Shown here: piece after piece, positions 2,261 through 17,759 of the stretch
How positions within the stretch are numbered: the stretch's first letter is position 1
How the letters are laid out: every line of letters starts with the position of its first letter
Source of the DNA: Novakomyces olei
Taxonomy: Eukaryota > Ascomycota > Novakomycetes > Novakomycetales > Novakomycetaceae
Direction: 5' to 3'
DNA: 64,000 nt
Assembly (NCBI GenBank): GCA_016906335.1
Contig: JADEYG010000004.1
Span: 1 to 64,000, forward strand
Position numbers and translations under genes: made by a program
The notes under the pieces: generated by a model
Databases searched by the model: none
What the model was told of the DNA's origin: nothing
What the model saw: the letters and a program-made list of their open reading frames with translations, nothing else

Positions 2261-3781
2261 ATGGAATTTCGCCATAATTCCGGTTTGAATATATCTAGGC
2301 AAGAAACGCTGGCCGAATATAGCTTCGACATCGTTTACAGGCCGGGCATCAACAATGGAGGGGCAGATCCCCTCAGCCGACGGCCAGATTACGCTTTAAC
2401 TAAAGATGGCAGCCACAGTAAGGCACAATTCCAGCCATTGCTATCGTCAAGCCAGCTGAAATGCTTCGCAACAGATGAGACCCAGCTTCTTGACGAGAGA
2501 AATTATGCTAAACCAGAGGAACGCAGGAGAATATTGGAGGCGTTCCATGACCACCCACTGGCAGGACATTTTGGCGAGGCCAGAACTCTGGAACTGATCA
2601 CCAGGAACTACAAATGGGACGGTATTACAAAAGATGTAAAGGAATATGTCAAAAATTGCCCTACATGCATTCGAAATAAGGTATCCCGAAGGATCAAAGC
2701 CGGCATGCTACAGCCACTGAAGATTCCGGACAGGCCTTGGTCGTCAATATCAATCGATTTTATTGTTAAGTTACCTATTTCCGATGGTTACGATTCAATC
2801 CTTGTTGTAGTGGACCGTTTCTCGAAAATGGCGCACTTTATACCGTGCAAGGAAAAGATTTCTGCTACAGAAGTGGCATATTTATTTATTAAGCACATTT
2901 TCCGACTACACGGCCTCCCCGAAGAAATAGTATCGGACCGAGATACTCGTCTTGTTAGTAAGTTCTGGACTGCACTAGCCGAAAATCTACAAATAAAGCT
3001 ATGCAAATCCACGAGTCATCACCCGCAAAGCGACGGGCAGACCGAAAGAACGAATCAGACCCTCGAACAATACTTGAGGTGTTACATTAATTATAATCAG
3101 AACAACTGGGCACGATTATTGCCGTTAGCTGAGTTTGCTATCAATAATGCACAAAGTGCCAGTACTAAAATGTCTCCATTTTTTATTGCCGTTGGTTATC
3201 ACCCACGATTTTCTTACGAGTTTCAAGCCACGAGCAATGTACCGGCCGCAAATGAGTTTACCGCGAAACTCCAGGAAAGATTTATGACTTTACGCGCCGA
3301 GTTACAGAAGGCTCAAGACCGAATGAAATTTTATTACGACGCTAAGCGACGCGACGCCGCTACTTACCAGCCAGGCGACCTAGTTTGGATTAGAAGACAG
3401 CACATTAAATCCAAAAGGCCGTCAGACAAACTTGACCATACAAAAATTGGCCCCTTTCCCGTATTGGAAAAAATTGGCACGAGCGCATACCGTGTTAAAC
3501 TGCCCGCGACCATTAGAATCCATCCCGTGTTTAACGAAACACTGCTGGAACCGCACAAAGGAGATCGTTTTTCACGAGACGCGTCCAGTGCAACCGTACC
3601 TGACGTTATCCAAGATGAGGAAGAATTCGAAGTAGACTACATATGCGATCACAAGGGATCGGGCTCGACAAGGCGCTATTTGGTTCATTGGAAGGGTTAT
3701 ACAGAAAATGACCGCACATGGGAACCGGTAGCGAACTTAGGAAACGCTAGCGAAGCTTTAGCAGAGTATCTTAAACGCTAA
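2261..3781 (+). mobile_element. Ty3/gypsy chromovirus fossil: RNase H end, integrase, chromodomain
   Basis: This is the 3' part of a chromovirus pol gene. It begins in the tail of the RNase H domain (ADPLSRRPD motif), then has the H-H-C-C integrase zinc-binding region, the D-D-E integrase core (IDFIVKLP; SDRDTRL; SDGQTERTNQ) and a C-terminal chromodomain (YLVHWKGYTENDRTWEP). gag, protease and reverse transcriptase are not present upstream, so the copy is incomplete and treated as a fossil. Homology starts near 2290; the preceding codons are unrelated flank. It lies just upstream of the JmjC ORF and LTR described below and was probably part of the same insertion. The well-kept domains suggest a fairly young copy. 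Function today: none inferred. Confidence 0.9.
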
Positions 3782-4128
3782 AAAGTTTCATGCTGAATTA
3801 TTTTATTTGATTTTTGTTTAATGACGGCGGTATTTCAACCATACTGTCCTAAATTGCGAGCAGATGTTATTCAACTACTATGCAAACTGTTTTATTATAC
3901 CGAATATTCGCAAAAAAAAAAAAAAAAAAAAAAAAGGGGGGAAAACTGCGTGTTTGCATCGTTAATATATGTAATGTATGAGTTAGCACGATATAGTGCT
4001 AAGTCACACACACTAGTGCCAAGTCACACACACTGGTGCTTTCTGGAACATTCCCACACAGAAAAACTATAAATACAGTCGCACCCCCCGGTGCTATATC
4101 ACTACTTTACACACATATTTTTGAAATT
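3782..4128 (+). promoter_or_regulatory. Spacer/promoter before the JmjC ORF
   Basis: It contains an A-run (about 3910-3932), a 20-bp tandem duplication (4001-4020 and 4021-4040, AAGTCACACACACT core) and a TATA-like TATAAATA near 4069. Two inverted dyads of the form GCAC-N6-GTGC lie at 3984-4001 (TAGCAC-N6-GTGCTA) and 4081-4094. The same dyad occurs twice in the LTR at 5326-5362, which suggests a shared regulator. No gene is seen in this spacer. Confidence 0.6.
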
Positions 4129-5232
4129 ATGGAGGGACAAGAAATCGACTTGACAGCCGACCTTGAGGAGGGGGGTGAGCGCCCGCAAAAGCGATCGCGG
4201 GGCGCTAAGAATGTTGGAGAGCACATCTGCGCTCTCTGTCACAAAGGTCTTGGCAGAAAACAAGAGCTGCACCGACACCTAAAAGAAGTTCACCACGTTG
4301 ACTTTAGACTGGCTGAACTTGTGTCGGAATGGGACCTCCGAACGTCGCGCATGCCGACCCACCGGACGGGTAGGAACATACTTTGGGCCGCGGCGGCTAA
4401 GGAGCATACATGGCTTGAGACCGTTACAGAGTCTTGGAAAGACTGTTTCGAGCGGGAGCCAACGTGGCCGGTCGTCATGGAGGACGTTACGCAACACGAC
4501 CTTCAACTTTTTAACATCCGCGACCGAGCAAGATACACGGATATTTCGGTGGCTCGGTTCGTGGCGGGGTTCGTTTACGGCGCGGAGAAAATCGAATGGT
4601 ACGCGGCTTACAATGTGCCGCCCTCGACGCAGGGCTTACTAACCTTGAGCCCGAGGGCCCTACCCGCTACAAATAATTACAAAAACCGCCCCGAAACGGA
4701 CTGGAGCACGGTGGTCTCTCCGGCTGGGACGATCACGGACATACACGTGGACAACGTGTTCTTGGGTCACGTGTTGGTTTGCGTGCTGGGAAGGAAATTG
4801 GTATTCGCCTGGCCACCGTCGGCTGCGAACCTTGACTACTTCGCGCAGTACCACCACAAGGTGGGGGATATGTTTTTGTACCAGGGCATTCATGAGCTCC
4901 AGGGGCTACATGTTTGTGACCTGAAGAAGGGATTCGCCTGCTACATGGGACCCGGTTGGCTCCATGCAGTGATCTCCTTGGAAAACAGTGCGCTCACTGG
5001 TTACAGCGTAATACCAGTTGGGCAGGAAAACACTGTGGAACGCCTAGTGAGGTGGGAATTGGAGACACTGGCGGCGGATTCGGACAACTCCGTGGCATTG
5101 GCAAATGTCTACGAGGAGCACACGATTGGGGCTCAGGAATGGAAAAGAGCCAGAGTGAAAGGGGCAGATAGATTAGGTAGAATCAGTAGAGAAGGCCTCA
5201 AAAAATTAGAGCCCACCCTGGGAGGGGGGTAA
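4129..5232 (+). CDS. C2H2 zinc finger + JmjC (KDM2-like) protein, retroelement-associated ORF
   Basis: The protein is 367 residues. It has a SUMO-interaction-like motif (IDLTADLEE, residues 6-14), a basic patch (RPQKRSR), one C2H2 finger (C34, C37, H50, H55) and a JmjC-type cupin. The iron-binding triad looks complete: H206-x-D208 and H279 in GPGWLHAVI, with spacing and neighbouring motifs like KDM2/PHF8 (TDxHxD; PPxxxNL; GWxHAV). The family known from this fold is Fe(II)/2-oxoglutarate lysine demethylases; activity here is inference. I chose ATG 4129 because it follows the TATA and leader; an in-frame ATG at 4036 overlaps the promoter. The stop codon abuts a polypurine tract and the LTR begins at the very next base, so this ORF occupies the last-gene position of an LTR element. 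The ORF looks whole. Confidence 0.75.
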   Translation: MEGQEIDLTADLEEGGERPQKRSRGAKNVGEHICALCHKGLGRKQELHRHLKEVHHVDFRLAELVSEWDLRTSRMPTHRTGRNILWAAAAKEHTWLETVTESWKDCFEREPTWPVVMEDVTQHDLQLFNIRDRARYTDISVARFVAGFVYGAEKIEWYAAYNVPPSTQGLLTLSPRALPATNNYKNRPETDWSTVVSPAGTITDIHVDNVFLGHVLVCVLGRKLVFAWPPSAANLDYFAQYHHKVGDMFLYQGIHELQGLHVCDLKKGFACYMGPGWLHAVISLENSALTGYSVIPVGQENTVERLVRWELETLAADSDNSVALANVYEEHTIGAQEWKRARVKGADRLGRISREGLKKLEPTLGGG

Positions 5233-5621
5233 TGTCACGAGTGTGACATGGCCTTAAGTAAGACAGCGAATGCTGCATTACTTAAGGATAAGGACTATAT
5301 AGTTTTATATAGTATTTCATAGCGATAGCACTAGGTAGTGCTATACAGCACCACCTTGTGCTATTACTTAGTTTCATAGAAGTCGTAGTGTATAAAAGGC
5401 TTCGCGGAAGACTTTTTACACTACGCAATATCATAAGCTACAACTTGAAGTCTCCAGGTGTCTTAGGAGAATAGGCTTAGCTTCTAGCTGTAGTTCCCTT
5501 AGTCTTCACTTACCGGAACCCCTATCGAAAGGCAGCGTGCTATCTGCCGCCCAAGGGGATTACTCGTCGTCGCGGCTGAATTCAAGCCGTGAGTCACCTA
5601 GTTGCGGGCCGACCCGTAACA
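5233..5621 (+). mobile_element. LTR 1 (Ty3/gypsy type), about 389 bp
   Basis: It starts TGTCAC directly after a polypurine tract, the usual 3' LTR junction. A TATAAAAG box lies at 5391-5398 inside a strong hairpin (5385-5424), and the likely end is ...GTAACA at 5621. It carries two AGCAC-N6-GTGCT dyads (5327-5342 and 5347-5362). The right boundary is estimated from the TG...CA rule and from comparison with LTR 2. Confidence 0.7.
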
Positions 5622-5995
5622 CACTCCGCTAGCGCGAGAACATTCATAGTTATTTCCATAGTCTAGTTTAGGTTGAGAGCTTCCCGCTCTAACTTGCGCG
5701 ACCTTCGCTCAAGTTAGTTTGGGAAGAGTAGTTTAGAGTGCGAAGGAGCATCCGCTCCTCCGCAGCTTAGTTTAGTTTATAGTTGCCCGTGAAGGCCTCT
5801 TGCCCTTCACGGGTTGATTATCTCAAAGTGGGAGTAATACATTATATTACTCCTGGTAAGCTTTACAGTAATCGCTTTCTGCTTTCCTGGTCTTTCTTAT
5901 TCCTTTACTTTATTTAAACTATACACGGCCGGCCTCCAGCGATTGTAGCTGTAAGGACCGCCTTACACTGGAACGATCCAAGTGAACGTGTCTAC
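5622..5995. other. Hairpin-rich stretch between LTR 1 and the second element
   Basis: No gene is seen. Several short perfect hairpins are present, for example CCCGTGAAGG...CCTTCACGGG near 5788-5815, GCGGAGG/AGGAGC near 5740-5765 and GGAGTAATA...TATTACTCC near 5830-5853. It may be untranslated or internal retroelement sequence. Confidence 0.5.
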
Positions 5996-6421
5996 GTGAC
6001 ACGTTATTTTTGGTGTTTATGTGGCTATTTTGATTTTATGAGCACGCGAGGTGCAAGATGCACCTGCAGTGCAATTCTACTATTAAACAAGACAAACCGA
6101 CTGCCGCGAAGGATCACGCCGCGCAGTGAGGAGGGAGATAGGTCGACGACAAGCTGTCGACGCCCGAATAATTCTGGGCCGTTCGCCTGCGAATTATGCC
6201 GGTGATAACGTACGAGATTTTTATTTTTTGATGTGCGCCTACCCGAGTGGGTAAATTGGGAGGCCAATACACTACGAGGTGCCCCTGGGGAGGAATTGGT
6301 CGCTCACCGCGCAGAGTTGAACCGGATGGACAACTACTGGCGTGAAAGGAAGACTTCCTATATCTACCTTGCGAAGATTGGGGAAATCGCAAGCCTTATT
6401 GGAGCTTAAGGAGGGGAGTGA
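5996..6421 (+). mobile_element. Decayed remnant of a related zinc finger-JmjC ORF plus polypurine tract
   Basis: Heavily broken. Only short stretches are recognisable: a C2H2 start-like FACELC near 6190, and a C-terminal tail near 6235-6409 that parallels the intact ORF (W-E-x-x-T-L, then about 20 residues, then W-R/K-x-R). It ends in a stop, a purine tract (6410-6421) and an LTR, the same layout as at 5232/5233. A palindrome (AGGTGCA-N3-TGCACCT, 6049-6065) upstream mirrors a motif in LTR 2. I read it as a second, older, related element. Identification rests on weak similarity and shared layout. Confidence 0.45.
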
Positions 6422-6790
6422 TGTCATGGTTGCACCTGACATGGTGCAAGTACAGTGCATCTTGCACAGAACTTGCACCGAGTAAAGTAGTTTAGCTTAC
6501 TTGTTGAGGCTTAGCCTCTTAGTTCCTTTTCGAGATAGTTTTTGAGTTATTTTAGTTAGTGAGATTAGTGAGTACGTAGCCCGTAAAGCATATAAAGGGG
6601 CTTCTCTCCTTTATAACTTTACGGTTAATCAACTTTGTTGGAAGAGTTAACTTCCATCTGGAGTCCCCTGCTGTAGCCAGCCGCGTACGACTGGCAGAAG
6701 CTTATAGTAACAAAAGCGTTTATTACTACGAGCAGTTAAGAGTCTACGTCCGAATCTACCTAAGCAAGCGTGCTAGGTAGCAACATAACA
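6422..6790 (+). mobile_element. LTR 2 (related Ty3/gypsy family), about 369 bp
   Basis: It starts TGTCAT after the polypurine tract and ends ...ATAACA. A TATA box at 6591 lies in a hairpin (6581-6624) placed as in LTR 1 but with different bases. The dyad TTGCACC-N6-GGTGCAA (6430-6449) and the palindrome GTGCATCTTGCAC (6455-6467) occur near the start. It is clearly related to LTR 1 in design but diverged in sequence, so it comes from another family or subfamily. Confidence 0.65.
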
Positions 6791-6819: not shown

Positions 6820-6950
6820 ACCATATATTAACACCATACATTAATTCCCATACATTATTCCCAAATACATTAATCCCCATATATAATTCCCCCATACATT
6901 AAACCCCATAAATTATCCCCATACATTATTCCCCCATACATTAATTTACC
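6820..6950. repeat. Subtelomeric satellite, second block
   Basis: About nine copies of the CATACATTA(TT) unit found at 600-1565. Its presence on both sides of 2000-6790 shows that the retroelement material sits inside the satellite domain. Confidence 0.9.
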
Positions 6951-7491: not shown

Positions 7492-8095
7492 ATGGCCACC
7501 AGGTCGGGTCCATCAACGGAAAAGGATGCACTGCGTAGCAAGTCGCACGAATTAACAGCCTCAGGAGATGCCTCGACGACTGAAGCACTCGCCCCGGAAT
7601 CGGGCGTCAAATGCGGTCTTAAGACGCGGCACTTATCTATGCTGAGTCTTGCCGGAATTATAGGACCTGGCCTGCTTATTGGCGCAGGTAGCGCGCTTGT
7701 TGAAGGCGGCCCTGCTACGCTCATCATAGGATTTGCCCGGCGGGCAGTTTTGTGCGAATTATGGGGACAAAGCGTTTGCTTGTGCTGCTGGCTGGAATTA
7801 TTTTATAATATGGGCCGCTGTTCTATCGACTGAATACAATGCAACCACTAGCATTATGACGTTCTGGTCGCATAAGGTGCCCATTTGGGGCTGGTTCTTA
7901 ATTTTTTGGGCTGTTTTGCTTGCATTCCAGCTTCTCGGCCTTGCATCTTTTGGAGAGGCCAAGTTTTGGCTAGCTCTGATAAAGATTTTGGGACTTTTGG
8001 CATTTTTCATATTTGCCATTGTCTATATTGCTGGTGGGATTCGCGGTCAAAGAGCAAGATATTGGCATGACCCTGGACCAATTCCAATCGCATAA
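7492..8095 (+). pseudogene. Amino-acid permease pseudogene (AAT/YAT family)
   Basis: The first frame (ATG 7492) gives a typical hydrophilic N-terminus and TM1 signature (HLSMLSLAGIIGPGLLIGAG). Similarity then jumps to another frame from about 7733, continuing with the TM4-6 region (AGWNYFIIWAAVLSTEYNA; FWLALIKILGLLAFFIFAIV; RYWHDPGP) and stopping at 8095. Between the two parts, sequence equivalent to roughly TM2-TM3 is missing, and everything after the YWHDPGP loop, more than half of a normal protein of about 550 residues, is absent. It is therefore a frameshifted, internally deleted and truncated copy of a plasma-membrane amino-acid/H+ symporter. It is the most telomere-proximal host gene remnant. 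Confidence 0.85.
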
Positions 8096-9591: not shown

Positions 9592-9955
9592 TTGGATAGT
9601 AGGATTAAACAAGCTTGTTGAAATAGCTCTTGAGTTGTCTATCTGATGTCGAATTCCTAGCCCTTATATACATGTAGCTACGTCAAAGCCATTTGTTTTC
9701 TTGCAAGGCCTAGCCTCTAGTCGAGTCAGTCATCAATTTGCGCTATTTACGTCATAGGCAGGAAGGCTCGATACGAGTAGCGCAGTCGTGACATTCCCTG
9801 ATTTCCTCTATACTCGGTGTTTGAATTATCTCTGTCTAAGGTACCCGATTTGTCAGCATTGGTTCGAGGATAGAATCTACCGGGCATTTATTTATTGTTT
9901 ATGTAATCACTGCTTATCGTGAGCACCCACATGCCCGGAATTGGAATAAGCGCGT

Positions 9956-10110
9956 ATTGTATTAGTAAGTTCTTGTATTAGTAAATTCTTGTATTAGTAA
10001 ATTCTTGTATTAGTAAGTTCTTGTATTAGTAAATTCTTGTATTAGTAAATTCTTGTATTAGTAAGTTCTTGTATTAGTAAGTCCTGTTATCAGGAAGTTC
10101 TTGTATTAGT
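9956..10110. repeat. 16-bp tandem repeat, about 9 copies
   Basis: Head-to-tail copies of TATTAGTAARTTCTTG, ending about 200 bp before the SDR start codon. There are no spacers, so this is a minisatellite, not a CRISPR. It may influence the SDR promoter. Confidence 0.9.
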
Positions 10111-10309
10111 AAGAAGATCAAGGAGCATGGCTAGCAAGTTCGGCGAATAGATGACAAATGGGCTGGCTGTAAAGTGAGGCCGTTTGCAAGGGCCCAATTT
10201 GTCAGCCACAAACTGACTCAATATATAAAGCCTCATATACTCTCTATAGCGTATCAAGCAGAACCGAAGCATCAAGATCGTCGTCCTGAACAGAGTTTTT
10301 TAACCTACA

Positions 10310-15913: not shown

Positions 15914-16265
15914 TTAAAGTCCTATGTTGTCCTTAATATGGCCCCGTTGACGCCCGTACGTGGGATGACAGGAAAAATCCGAATAGGTGAAATGGGAGGA
16001 ACTTACCCTTTTGAGCTGATAACGCATTAGCGTAATTAGCTATACGTTTTGATGGGAATATCCGGTTGGATTTCAAAAGATTTGTGAGGTCTAAGCGCTT
16101 TCAAGCATATGTAACTATACACCAAGTAATTTTGCAGTGCAAAATTAGTAATTGCACTGCGGATAAGATAGAATTATGAAGAGTCATTATACGAATTGAT
16201 CGATACGATAATTGAATTAACGTCAAAATCCATTGTGAGCTCGTAACCTACTCTGGTGGATCACA

Positions 16266-17759
16266 ATGCTACAACTGGAGGAAATCACAATAAGCAAGCT
16301 TCATGATGCTTACAAACGTGGTATTACATCAGCTGAGGCAGTAACACAATGGTACTTGGACCGCATTGAAGCATTGGACGCGGCTGGCCCAAGTTTACAC
16401 TCGGTCCTGGCTTTGTCTCAAACTGCTTTGGAAGAGTCTCGTTGGGCAGATGAATATTACAAACAGAACGAAAATTTTTGTGGACCAATGCACGGAGTGC
16501 CTATTCTTGTCAAAGATCAAATCGAAACCAAAGATATTGCGACAACATTTGGCAATGTGTGCTTTAAAAATTATACGCCTAAACAAGACGCCGAACTGGT
16601 CAAAAGGCTACGCAAAGCGGGGGCAATTATTTTGGGGAAAACAACGATGCCAGACTTTGCTGTATCCTGGTTTTCAAACAGTAGTGCTTCTCCGTATACT
16701 TGGACAAAAAATCCCTACGCCCTCGATCGCGATCCGGGTGGATCGAGCTCTGGCTCGGCTGCTGCTACTGCGGCGAATTTGTGCACGGTCGCAGTAGGTG
16801 AAGACACAGGTGGATCAATTAGACTACCTTGTTCTTTCTGCAACCTTGTTGGACTAAGGACTACTCCGGGTGTCGTTCCACGCGTGGGCTTATGCCCTCT
16901 TATCTGTTTTCAAGATGCTCCGGGTCCGATAGCGCGCAATGTTGAAGACTTGGCCGTCTTACTAGACGCAATTGCCGGATACGATAAACGTGATCCATTT
17001 TCTATGGCAGCTAAAATGGCAGTGCCAAAGGAAAGATTTGCCGCGGCTTTACGCACATGCCCAATTGATTTTAAGGACTTGCGCTTCGGAGTTTTACAGC
17101 AAGGTTTCGGAGAAGGCGCTAATGACATCGCTGCTCACTCGGTAAATAAGGTTATTCACAAAGCATTGAGTCAATTAGAAGAACTCGGCGTCACCCTTGT
17201 ACCCATTTCCATCCCGGAAATTAATGACTTTAAAATAAATACATCGCTTTACGCATTCCAGTCGCGTGCAGAGATAAACAAATTTCTGTCCACAAGGTTT
17301 GACGGCTTGACAGTTGAGGAAATTGTTGCTACAAAACGCTGTGACCCCCATCTGGATCTCTTGGATGATATAGCAAAAGGATATTCTGAGCCAGACGAGC
17401 ATATGGAATATAAGAAGCAGCTAGCTAATTGTGAAGCGTTTTCTCAGCGCATGGGTGGTGTTTTTTGCGAATATGAATTGTCTGCCCTAGTTTATCCAGA
17501 TGTGCAAATACCTGCACCGCGAAGGGAGCAAATCACAGAGTGGACAGGTCTTGGTTTCCCCACAAACACAGTTATTGCGTCTCAGTCCCGGTTTCCTGCT
17601 CTGACTATACCAGCAGGGTTTTCCGAGCCGAAGCATTTGCCAGTGGGCCTAGAAATTGTCGGCCTCCCTTACTCCGACAAGGATTTGTTAAAAATTGGTC
17701 TCGCCATTGAGCAGGCCATGCCTTATCGGCAAGTACCGAAGATACAAAATCCCACTTAG
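16266..17759 (+). CDS. Amidase (amidase-signature family)
   Basis: A 497-residue single-exon protein with the amidase-signature core: catalytic Lys83 in GVPILVKDQIETK, the cis-Ser loop GGSSSGSAAA (about 159-167) and nucleophile Ser184 in GEDTGGSIRLP, plus the C-terminal FPALTIPAGFS...LPVGLEIVG typical of fungal acetamidase/Gln-amidotransferase-like members. These enzymes hydrolyse carboxamides to acid and ammonia, a nitrogen-scavenging role. It faces away from the UNC93-like transporter and is followed at about 315 bp by a co-oriented 2OG oxygenase, so the three may form a small catabolic neighbourhood; the substrate is unknown. Confidence 0.92.
   Translation: MLQLEEITISKLHDAYKRGITSAEAVTQWYLDRIEALDAAGPSLHSVLALSQTALEESRWADEYYKQNENFCGPMHGVPILVKDQIETKDIATTFGNVCFKNYTPKQDAELVKRLRKAGAIILGKTTMPDFAVSWFSNSSASPYTWTKNPYALDRDPGGSSSGSAAATAANLCTVAVGEDTGGSIRLPCSFCNLVGLRTTPGVVPRVGLCPLICFQDAPGPIARNVEDLAVLLDAIAGYDKRDPFSMAAKMAVPKERFAAALRTCPIDFKDLRFGVLQQGFGEGANDIAAHSVNKVIHKALSQLEELGVTLVPISIPEINDFKINTSLYAFQSRAEINKFLSTRFDGLTVEEIVATKRCDPHLDLLDDIAKGYSEPDEHMEYKKQLANCEAFSQRMGGVFCEYELSALVYPDVQIPAPRREQITEWTGLGFPTNTVIASQSRFPALTIPAGFSEPKHLPVGLEIVGLPYSDKDLLKIGLAIEQAMPYRQVPKIQNPT

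Follow-up and report, generated by a model that had tools for sequence, protein, structure and literature searches.

A KDM2-like JmjC gene as third gene of a Ty3/gypsy chromovirus lineage in Novakomyces olei

The JmjC gene at positions 4129-5232 of the analysed window (64,000 nt, one end of contig C4 of the 14.34-Mb, 15-contig genome of Novakomyces olei) belongs to one retrotransposon lineage, in which it is under selection, and is not a host gene that happens to adjoin an LTR. This conclusion is drawn from the gene order, the conservation of residues, dN/dS values, the family pairs shared by the JmjC and integrase trees, and the association with one group of integrases. JmjC relatives occupy about 40 loci of the same genome and form eight families (F1-F8), the window copy being part of F1. 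With moderate confidence, we regard the gene as an accessory third gene of self-primed Ty3/gypsy chromoviruses, whose KDM2/KDM7-like JmjC domain and C2H2 finger would serve to demethylate histones over element copies.

Element copy and JmjC gene in the window

The ORF lies in a frame other than that of pol, starts with the ATG at 4129, ends with the TAA at 5230-5232 and encodes 367 amino acids. The respective features of the window are:

2300..3781, + strand: 3' part of pol of a 5'-truncated F1 element, with integrase zinc finger, core, Tf2-1-type SH3 and chromodomain
about 3626-3778, + strand: C-terminal chromodomain, cage positions F/Y, W and Y retained (domain search and alignment)
3782..4128, + strand: spacer between pol and JmjC gene with A24-G6 tract, GTGCTA boxes and TATAAATA at 4068-4075; candidate JmjC promoter (putative role)
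4129..5232, + strand: JmjC ORF, third gene of the element (sequence, domain searches, family alignment)
4228..4293, + strand: C2H2 zinc finger (C34, C37, H50, H55), invariant in 7/7 aligned families
4711..5022, + strand: KDM2-like JmjC core with T203, H206 (4744-4746), D208 (4750-4752), K223 and H279 (4963-4965)
5220..5229, + strand: polypurine tract encoding the final JmjC residues
5233..5621, + strand: 3' LTR of F1, 389 bp, TGTCAC...GTAACA; pairs of it bound complete copies elsewhere
5610..5969, + strand: LTR-matching fragment of another element family, with a 12-base overlap with the F1 LTR end; similar to many loci
5996..6409, + strand: remnant of an F8 JmjC gene with upstream part, finger start (6082-6204) and C-terminus (6221-6409); catalytic core absent
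6410..6418, + strand: F8 polypurine tract
6422..6790, + strand: presumed F8 LTR, TGTCATGG...CATAACA; ends read from the sequence, no F8 LTR pair seen

The integrase-chromodomain frame is open from 2261 to 3781 (H2C2, rve, Tf2-1 SH3, Chromo); gag, protease, RT and RNase H are absent from the window copy. Since homology to complete elements begins at residue 14 (about 2300), the copy is without its 5' part. A sequence-only reading of the window had called this region an integrase fossil, which holds for the truncated copy but not for the integrase frame itself. Its account of the gene's end is exact in both respects, i.e., the stop codon is followed with zero gap by the TGTCAC of the F1 LTR, and the last Gly codons are the polypurine tract (GGGAGGGGGG). 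Further downstream, the C-terminal match of the F8 remnant (6221-6406) has an E-value of 1.9e-22, and the match of the F8 region to locus L044 extends to 6791.

Two sequence details are noted beside these features. The A24-G6 purine tract (3912-3941) is located between pol and JmjC gene in F1 and is not seen in the F2-F4 spacers; it could be a relic polypurine tract that predates the acquisition of the gene, or could serve as an additional primer for the plus strand. Several LTRs of the JmjC families start with a short inverted repeat, TGTCA...TGACA (5233-5248 and 6422-6441 in the window, F2 at L025, F7 at L015).

At the protein level, the C2H2 finger (C34/C37/H50/H55) and the KDM2-like JmjC domain with intact H-D-H triad (H206/D208/H279), both claimed by the sequence-only reading, are confirmed. 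Among solved structures, KDM2A chains match the JmjC part best (E 5e-5, residues 190-288), where the likeness to KDM2 is limited to about 100 residues with 26-27% identity. T203 and K223 align with the TDFHVD and GGK positions of KDM2A, and we take both to be 2-oxoglutarate contacts. The only JmjC chains matched by the window protein are those of KDM2, KDM7 and PHF8/PHF2, which are also the sole JmjC chains among the best 60 of 177 matches of another search. Detection of the domain was via KDM2A/KDM7/PHF8 chains and a host KDM2-like protein, not via Pfam. That is, the Pfam JmjC model PF02373 matches 0/7 family members at E up to 0.1, and the core has therefore moved far; Cupin_8 is matched weakly in 2/7 members. 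A domain search among the seven members gave no match for CXXC, F-box or LRR, and PHD_P300 is weakly matched in one (E 0.029). Because the companion domains of KDM2 are absent, the protein has a KDM2-like core and is not a KDM2. A single-sequence structure model of the JmjC protein gave no usable fold (mean pLDDT 33).

We also compared the element protein with five host JmjC proteins based on hhalign. With classes named from our reading of the host sequences, the KDM2-like protein ranks first (96%, E 2.5e-9), followed by the KDM8-like (45%), the JMJD6-like (21%) and two KDM4/5-type proteins (<1% each). These five genes were used of six PF02373 matches, the sixth being a 28-residue piece. The host KDM2-like gene is a separate gene at C9:624004. 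No homologue outside the genome was found in a protein collection (searched with the window protein and with the seven-family alignment) or among viral contigs; since the searched collections are believed to be poor in fungi, this absence means little.

Copies, lineage and selection across the genome

Searching the own genome, the window protein gave 44 matches and two other queries 51 and 43. The 40 JmjC loci are the matches of the window protein and one further query with neighbours merged and the host KDM2-like gene left out; wider merging results in 39. F8 pieces (window 6221-6406, C2:46.8-47.5 kb) are outside this count, and counts from the LTR and integrase searches of the genome are lower bounds.

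The sequence-only reading had proposed a search for other copies with the same order. Run in the own genome, this search found LTR pairs around the ORF at 10 of 15 long loci (about 9.9 kb each) examined for such pairs, i.e., three each for F1, F2 and F3 and one for F4, while for F5-F8 no LTR pair was seen among these 15. Paired LTRs are 100% identical in 7/10 copies and 99.69-99.75% identical in 3/10 (for L027, only 289 bp of LTR are covered). Judged by eye, a 5-bp target duplication is present at six of the ten copies and absent at three, one copy not being judged. The complete F1 element consists of a 389-bp LTR, gag (Retrotrans_gag, zinc knuckle), pol, spacer, JmjC ORF and LTR, with pol (protease, RT, RNase H, integrase, Tf2-1 SH3, Chromo) in a frame other than that of gag. 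Both complete elements scanned (L022 of F1, L030 of F3) contain gag, PR, RT, RH, INT and CHD. Elements with the JmjC gene are 6.3-6.5 kb long, and several copies show frame breaks in pol or the JmjC gene. Since many loci show the same order, and complete copies with target-site duplications are among them, the arrangement is not due to chance.

The JmjC stop codon touches the LTR start TGT(C/T)A in 5/8 families (F1, F3, F5, F6, F7; purine tract and TG serve to place the LTR start of F5-F7), and the last residues are encoded by the tract. The stop is located 11 nt (F4) and 12 nt (F8) before the LTR, and the F2 frame ends 16 nt inside it. That the gene end overlaps the plus-strand primer in one family after another suggests a long-standing fixation of the gene at its place in the element. 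Separately, the F1-like locus L024 (C9:1643250), for which the genome-wide LTR search had listed no F1 LTR, was considered as a domesticated gene and rejected: a decayed LTR (85% over 194 columns) directly follows, so the locus is an old element remnant.

Next to the 5' LTR, after 2 nt, all four families with LTR pairs carry a 9-nt site that matches the LTR interior (ACGCAATAT, GCTGATTAT and twice ACGTGTAAT), with letters differing among F1, F2 and F3/F4. For F1 and F3, in which a TATA box was seen, the match within the LTR lies 32 and 34 nt downstream of that box. A 9-nt match of this kind is the signature of Tf1-type self-priming, and with these candidate primer sites the JmjC-bearing elements bear the signature of Tf1-like self-priming. 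Between pol and the JmjC frame lie 190-346 nt in the four families for which this was measured, and the gene therefore needs its own start, which splicing or a predicted internal promoter (in F1, TATAAATA at 53 nt upstream of the ATG) may provide. In the F1 copy L022, GTGCTA occurs four times in the LTR, three times in the spacer and not once in the 4097 nt of gag-pol; in all 300 shuffles, the most frequent shared 6-mer stays below this total of 7. This shared-box statistic is clear in F1 only, i.e., the ATCCG series of F2 is borderline, and F3 and F4 just reach the 95% level.

To relate the gene to its integrase, 85 of 168 integrase candidates were scored (77 merged loci) and a JmjC gene was counted if found within 1.2 kb downstream. 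Among these 77 loci, a JmjC gene follows at 23/30 with an integrase at least 51% identical to that of the window, at 1/6 with 48-50% and at 0/41 with 34-47% identity. For 7 of the 30 close integrases, no JmjC gene was detected within 1.2 kb downstream; these seven include the F6 integrase of L034, which is labelled as JmjC-bearing in the tree since its gene lies beyond an apparent nested element. Seen from the JmjC loci, 24/40 have an integrase within 1.2 kb upstream. The other 16 include many fragments as well as nested insertions, but also one full-length F5 gene (L043). At three loci of gene-less relatives, the examined downstream sequence holds no JmjC ORF after the chromodomain.

Two single loci are recorded here as observations. 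At C9:14209-15369, an integrase 58% identical to that of the window is followed by an AT-rich simple repeat, and no JmjC gene was found after it. At C7:7733-17833, an F6 integrase and its JmjC gene are seemingly separated by an inserted element of a different family, with LTR matches at 9683 and 16011-16368.

In the integrase tree, nine JmjC-bearing rows are on one side of a weakly supported branch (61/79); together with one row of unknown state, the values are 96/96. The JmjC tree of the eight families has the pairs F2+F7 (90/86), F3+F4 (96/94) and F5+F6 (98/95), and the integrase tree has the same pairs. Based on this agreement, we infer a single acquisition followed by descent with the element as the simplest reading. 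A JmjC tree including host proteins had also been suggested beforehand as a check: it groups the element proteins together and apart from the five host genes (90/93; 122 columns, long branches). F5+F6 is not a supported pair in this short core tree. The structural reading, i.e., a JmjC gene as last ORF of an LTR element, has withstood the refutation that the sequence-only reading had set for itself, since other element copies carry the ORF and the element proteins group apart from those of the host.

Concerning conservation, the six other families in the full-length alignment of seven are 25-30% identical to the window protein, and C34, C37, H50, H55, H206, D208, H279, T203 and K223 are invariant across all seven. 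We compared nine sequence pairs for dN/dS, where binomial P-values refer to a deficit of nonsynonymous changes relative to the chance expectation. Of the four within-family pairs that are informative, three are under purifying selection: F1 vs. L024 (0.041/0.167 = 0.25, P 5e-7), F3 vs. L045 (0.016/0.091 = 0.18, P 1.6e-5) and the F5 pair (0.012/0.068 = 0.18, P 5e-5). The fourth, F2 vs. L028, is unconstrained (4.7 synonymous, 15.3 nonsynonymous), perhaps due to a frame change at its end. The pairs F1-L022 and F3-L034 differ at just two sites each, and synonymous sites are at or near saturation in the three between-family pairs.

Proposed role and alternative explanations

The host genome has one gene each with Pre-SET/SET (C4:1135 kb), chromo-shadow (C7:573 kb) and Piwi (C9:332 kb) domains, and judging from these genes the host probably has H3K9-type heterochromatin and RNAi. 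The outer 100 kb of the seven long contigs hold 14/36 JmjC loci in 11% of the bases; six of the seven also bear inner JmjC groups or single loci. The aromatic cage positions, which we identified presuming correspondence to HP1, are kept in the chromodomains of all seven JmjC-bearing families examined.

According to our preferred reading as a histone demethylase, the lineage would have captured, most simply once, a KDM2/KDM7-like JmjC dioxygenase with one C2H2 finger between pol and 3' LTR and then split into at least eight families retaining the gene. The JmjC protein would enter the nucleus, where its finger and/or partners would keep it at element DNA, with the JmjC domain stripping methyl groups from histone lysines (first candidates H3K9 or H3K36) over the LTR and the internal promoter. 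Element copies could then be transcribed in, or after insertion into, heterochromatin, to which the integrase chromodomain would direct them. The invariant catalytic residues, the purifying selection in 3/4 pairs and the H3K9-type genes of the host favour such a predicted eraser that would counteract host silencing. As a tentative extension, which we deem possible though not likely, the two domains may form a reader-eraser kit: the chromodomain would target methylated heterochromatin, while a finger-guided demethylase, matched to motifs in its own LTR and promoter, would reopen copies in trans. The motifs would be TAGCAC/GTGCTA in F1 and perhaps TAGCGC/GCGCTA in F4. If this is true, finger and motif would co-evolve family by family.

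Protein hydroxylation is also carried out by the JmjC fold, and hydroxylases are frequent among JmjC proteins that do not belong to the KDM families. The protein may thus be a hydroxylase or another 2-oxoglutarate enzyme that acts not on histones but on its own Gag or integrase or on a factor of the host (in translation or nuclear import), in line with a KDM2 likeness that is confined to the core. We consider this unlikely, given that the host KDM2-like protein is by far the best profile match, with JMJD6- and KDM8-like proteins weak, and that the invariant finger is of a DNA-binding type. Catalysis could also be dispensable altogether: an Epe1-type JmjC adaptor would limit heterochromatin by HP1 binding or factor recruitment, or a finger-guided activator would act on LTR and internal promoter. 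The HP1-like chromo-shadow gene of the host and the GTGCTA boxes shared by F1 LTR and spacer fit such a role. Still, an adaptor alone would not need catalytic residues, all of which are invariant despite 25-30% identity, and the shared boxes are at most borderline or just at the 95% level outside F1, such that we hold a non-catalytic role to be quite improbable.

Clustered genomic locations and the retained chromodomain cages would also agree with a self-limiting or targeting function, in which the eraser would be directed at insertion sites or at other elements, or would alter the marks read by the chromodomain, in order to spread insertions or to spare the host. Judged by eye, however, gene-less related chromoviruses occupy the same regions, so the gene is not needed for regional targeting, and we rate this function as very unlikely. 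What is next to negligible, and was rejected as a candidate, is an ordinary host JmjC gene or fragment that is located beside LTRs by chance: no observation in its favour was found, and against it stand the roughly 40 loci, the gene's position within LTR pairs, the recurring junctions and the congruent trees.

Relation to known systems and surroundings of the element

The elements share with Tf1/sushi-type chromoviruses gag, the PR-RT-RH-INT order, a Tf2-1-type SH3, the chromodomain, 5-bp duplications and the primer site matching the LTR interior. They differ by the extra third gene between pol and purine tract and by gag and pol in separate frames, whereas Tf1 is a single ORF. KDM2/JHDM1 and KDM7/PHF8 are closest in JmjC sequence and have the catalytic residues in common; the likeness, however, covers about 100 residues, and the element protein has a C2H2 finger, no CXXC match and, in a single member, a weak PHD-type match.

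Accessory genes with an effect on epigenetic marks reveal how elements are silenced by their hosts. In the present small genome, whose genes include Clr4-, HP1- and Argonaute-like ones, selection has retained a predicted eraser of histone marks in divergent families of elements with near-identical LTRs. This makes it testable whether retrotransposons fight heterochromatin by histone demethylation, and whether they do so for their own family only. Next to TET/JBP transposons, VANC and the orchid AlkB elements, the lineage would represent the corresponding case for retrotransposons and histones. We know of no JmjC domain in VANC.

Gypsy elements of the orchid Phalaenopsis, 25 kb in length, are reported to carry an AlkB-type 2-oxoglutarate dioxygenase ORF (an RNA m6A demethylase) as a recent acquisition (PMC9289625). 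Both cases thus combine an LTR retrotransposon with the ORF of a 2-oxoglutarate/Fe(II) eraser; here, in contrast, it is a KDM2-like JmjC domain with finger in 6.3-6.5-kb elements of eight divergent families. The same source holds that added genes rarely stay in LTR retrotransposons (PMC9289625). Fungal transposons bearing TET/JBP, e.g., Kyakuja, are likewise mobile carriers of a dioxygenase that may undo silencing marks but are mostly DNA transposons that rely on DNA-base oxidation (PMC12730594). VANC of the Arabidopsis VANDAL elements is an element-encoded anti-silencing factor (PMC10398659, PMC5735166), and its motifs in the element's own noncoding parts are a possible parallel; VANDALs are DNA transposons, and the anti-silencing role of the JmjC gene is a proposed one. 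Captured KDM4-like JmjC genes resembling histone demethylases occur in another parasite, the endogenized giant viruses of Amoebidium (PMC11244446); that case differs in concerning a large DNA virus, the KDM4 type and no retroelement. Retroelements with captured DNA methyltransferases are described in PMC5890265.

That is, captured epigenetic enzymes in retroelements are already known, while the literature searches yielded no JmjC gene that is fixed as third gene in a lineage of LTR retrotransposons. The sequence-only reading knew of no described Ty3/gypsy family with a JmjC gene in this position, and our searches agree: they found no published JmjC gene in an LTR retrotransposon among the openly readable papers listed, with subscription papers and Repbase Reports outside their coverage.

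The surroundings of the element block in the window are summarized as minor observations. Positions 1-120 are a telomere-like array with the 10-nt unit CTAACCCTAA (TTAGTTAGGG on the opposite strand). Subtelomeric repeats around CATACATTA with a period of about 15 nt (590-1570 and 6820-6950) flank the element block on both sides. Just inside the subtelomere, a broken gene resembling a fungal amino-acid permease is found at 7492-8095, and a 16-nt tandem repeat of TTGTATTAGTAARTTC is located at 9925-10144.
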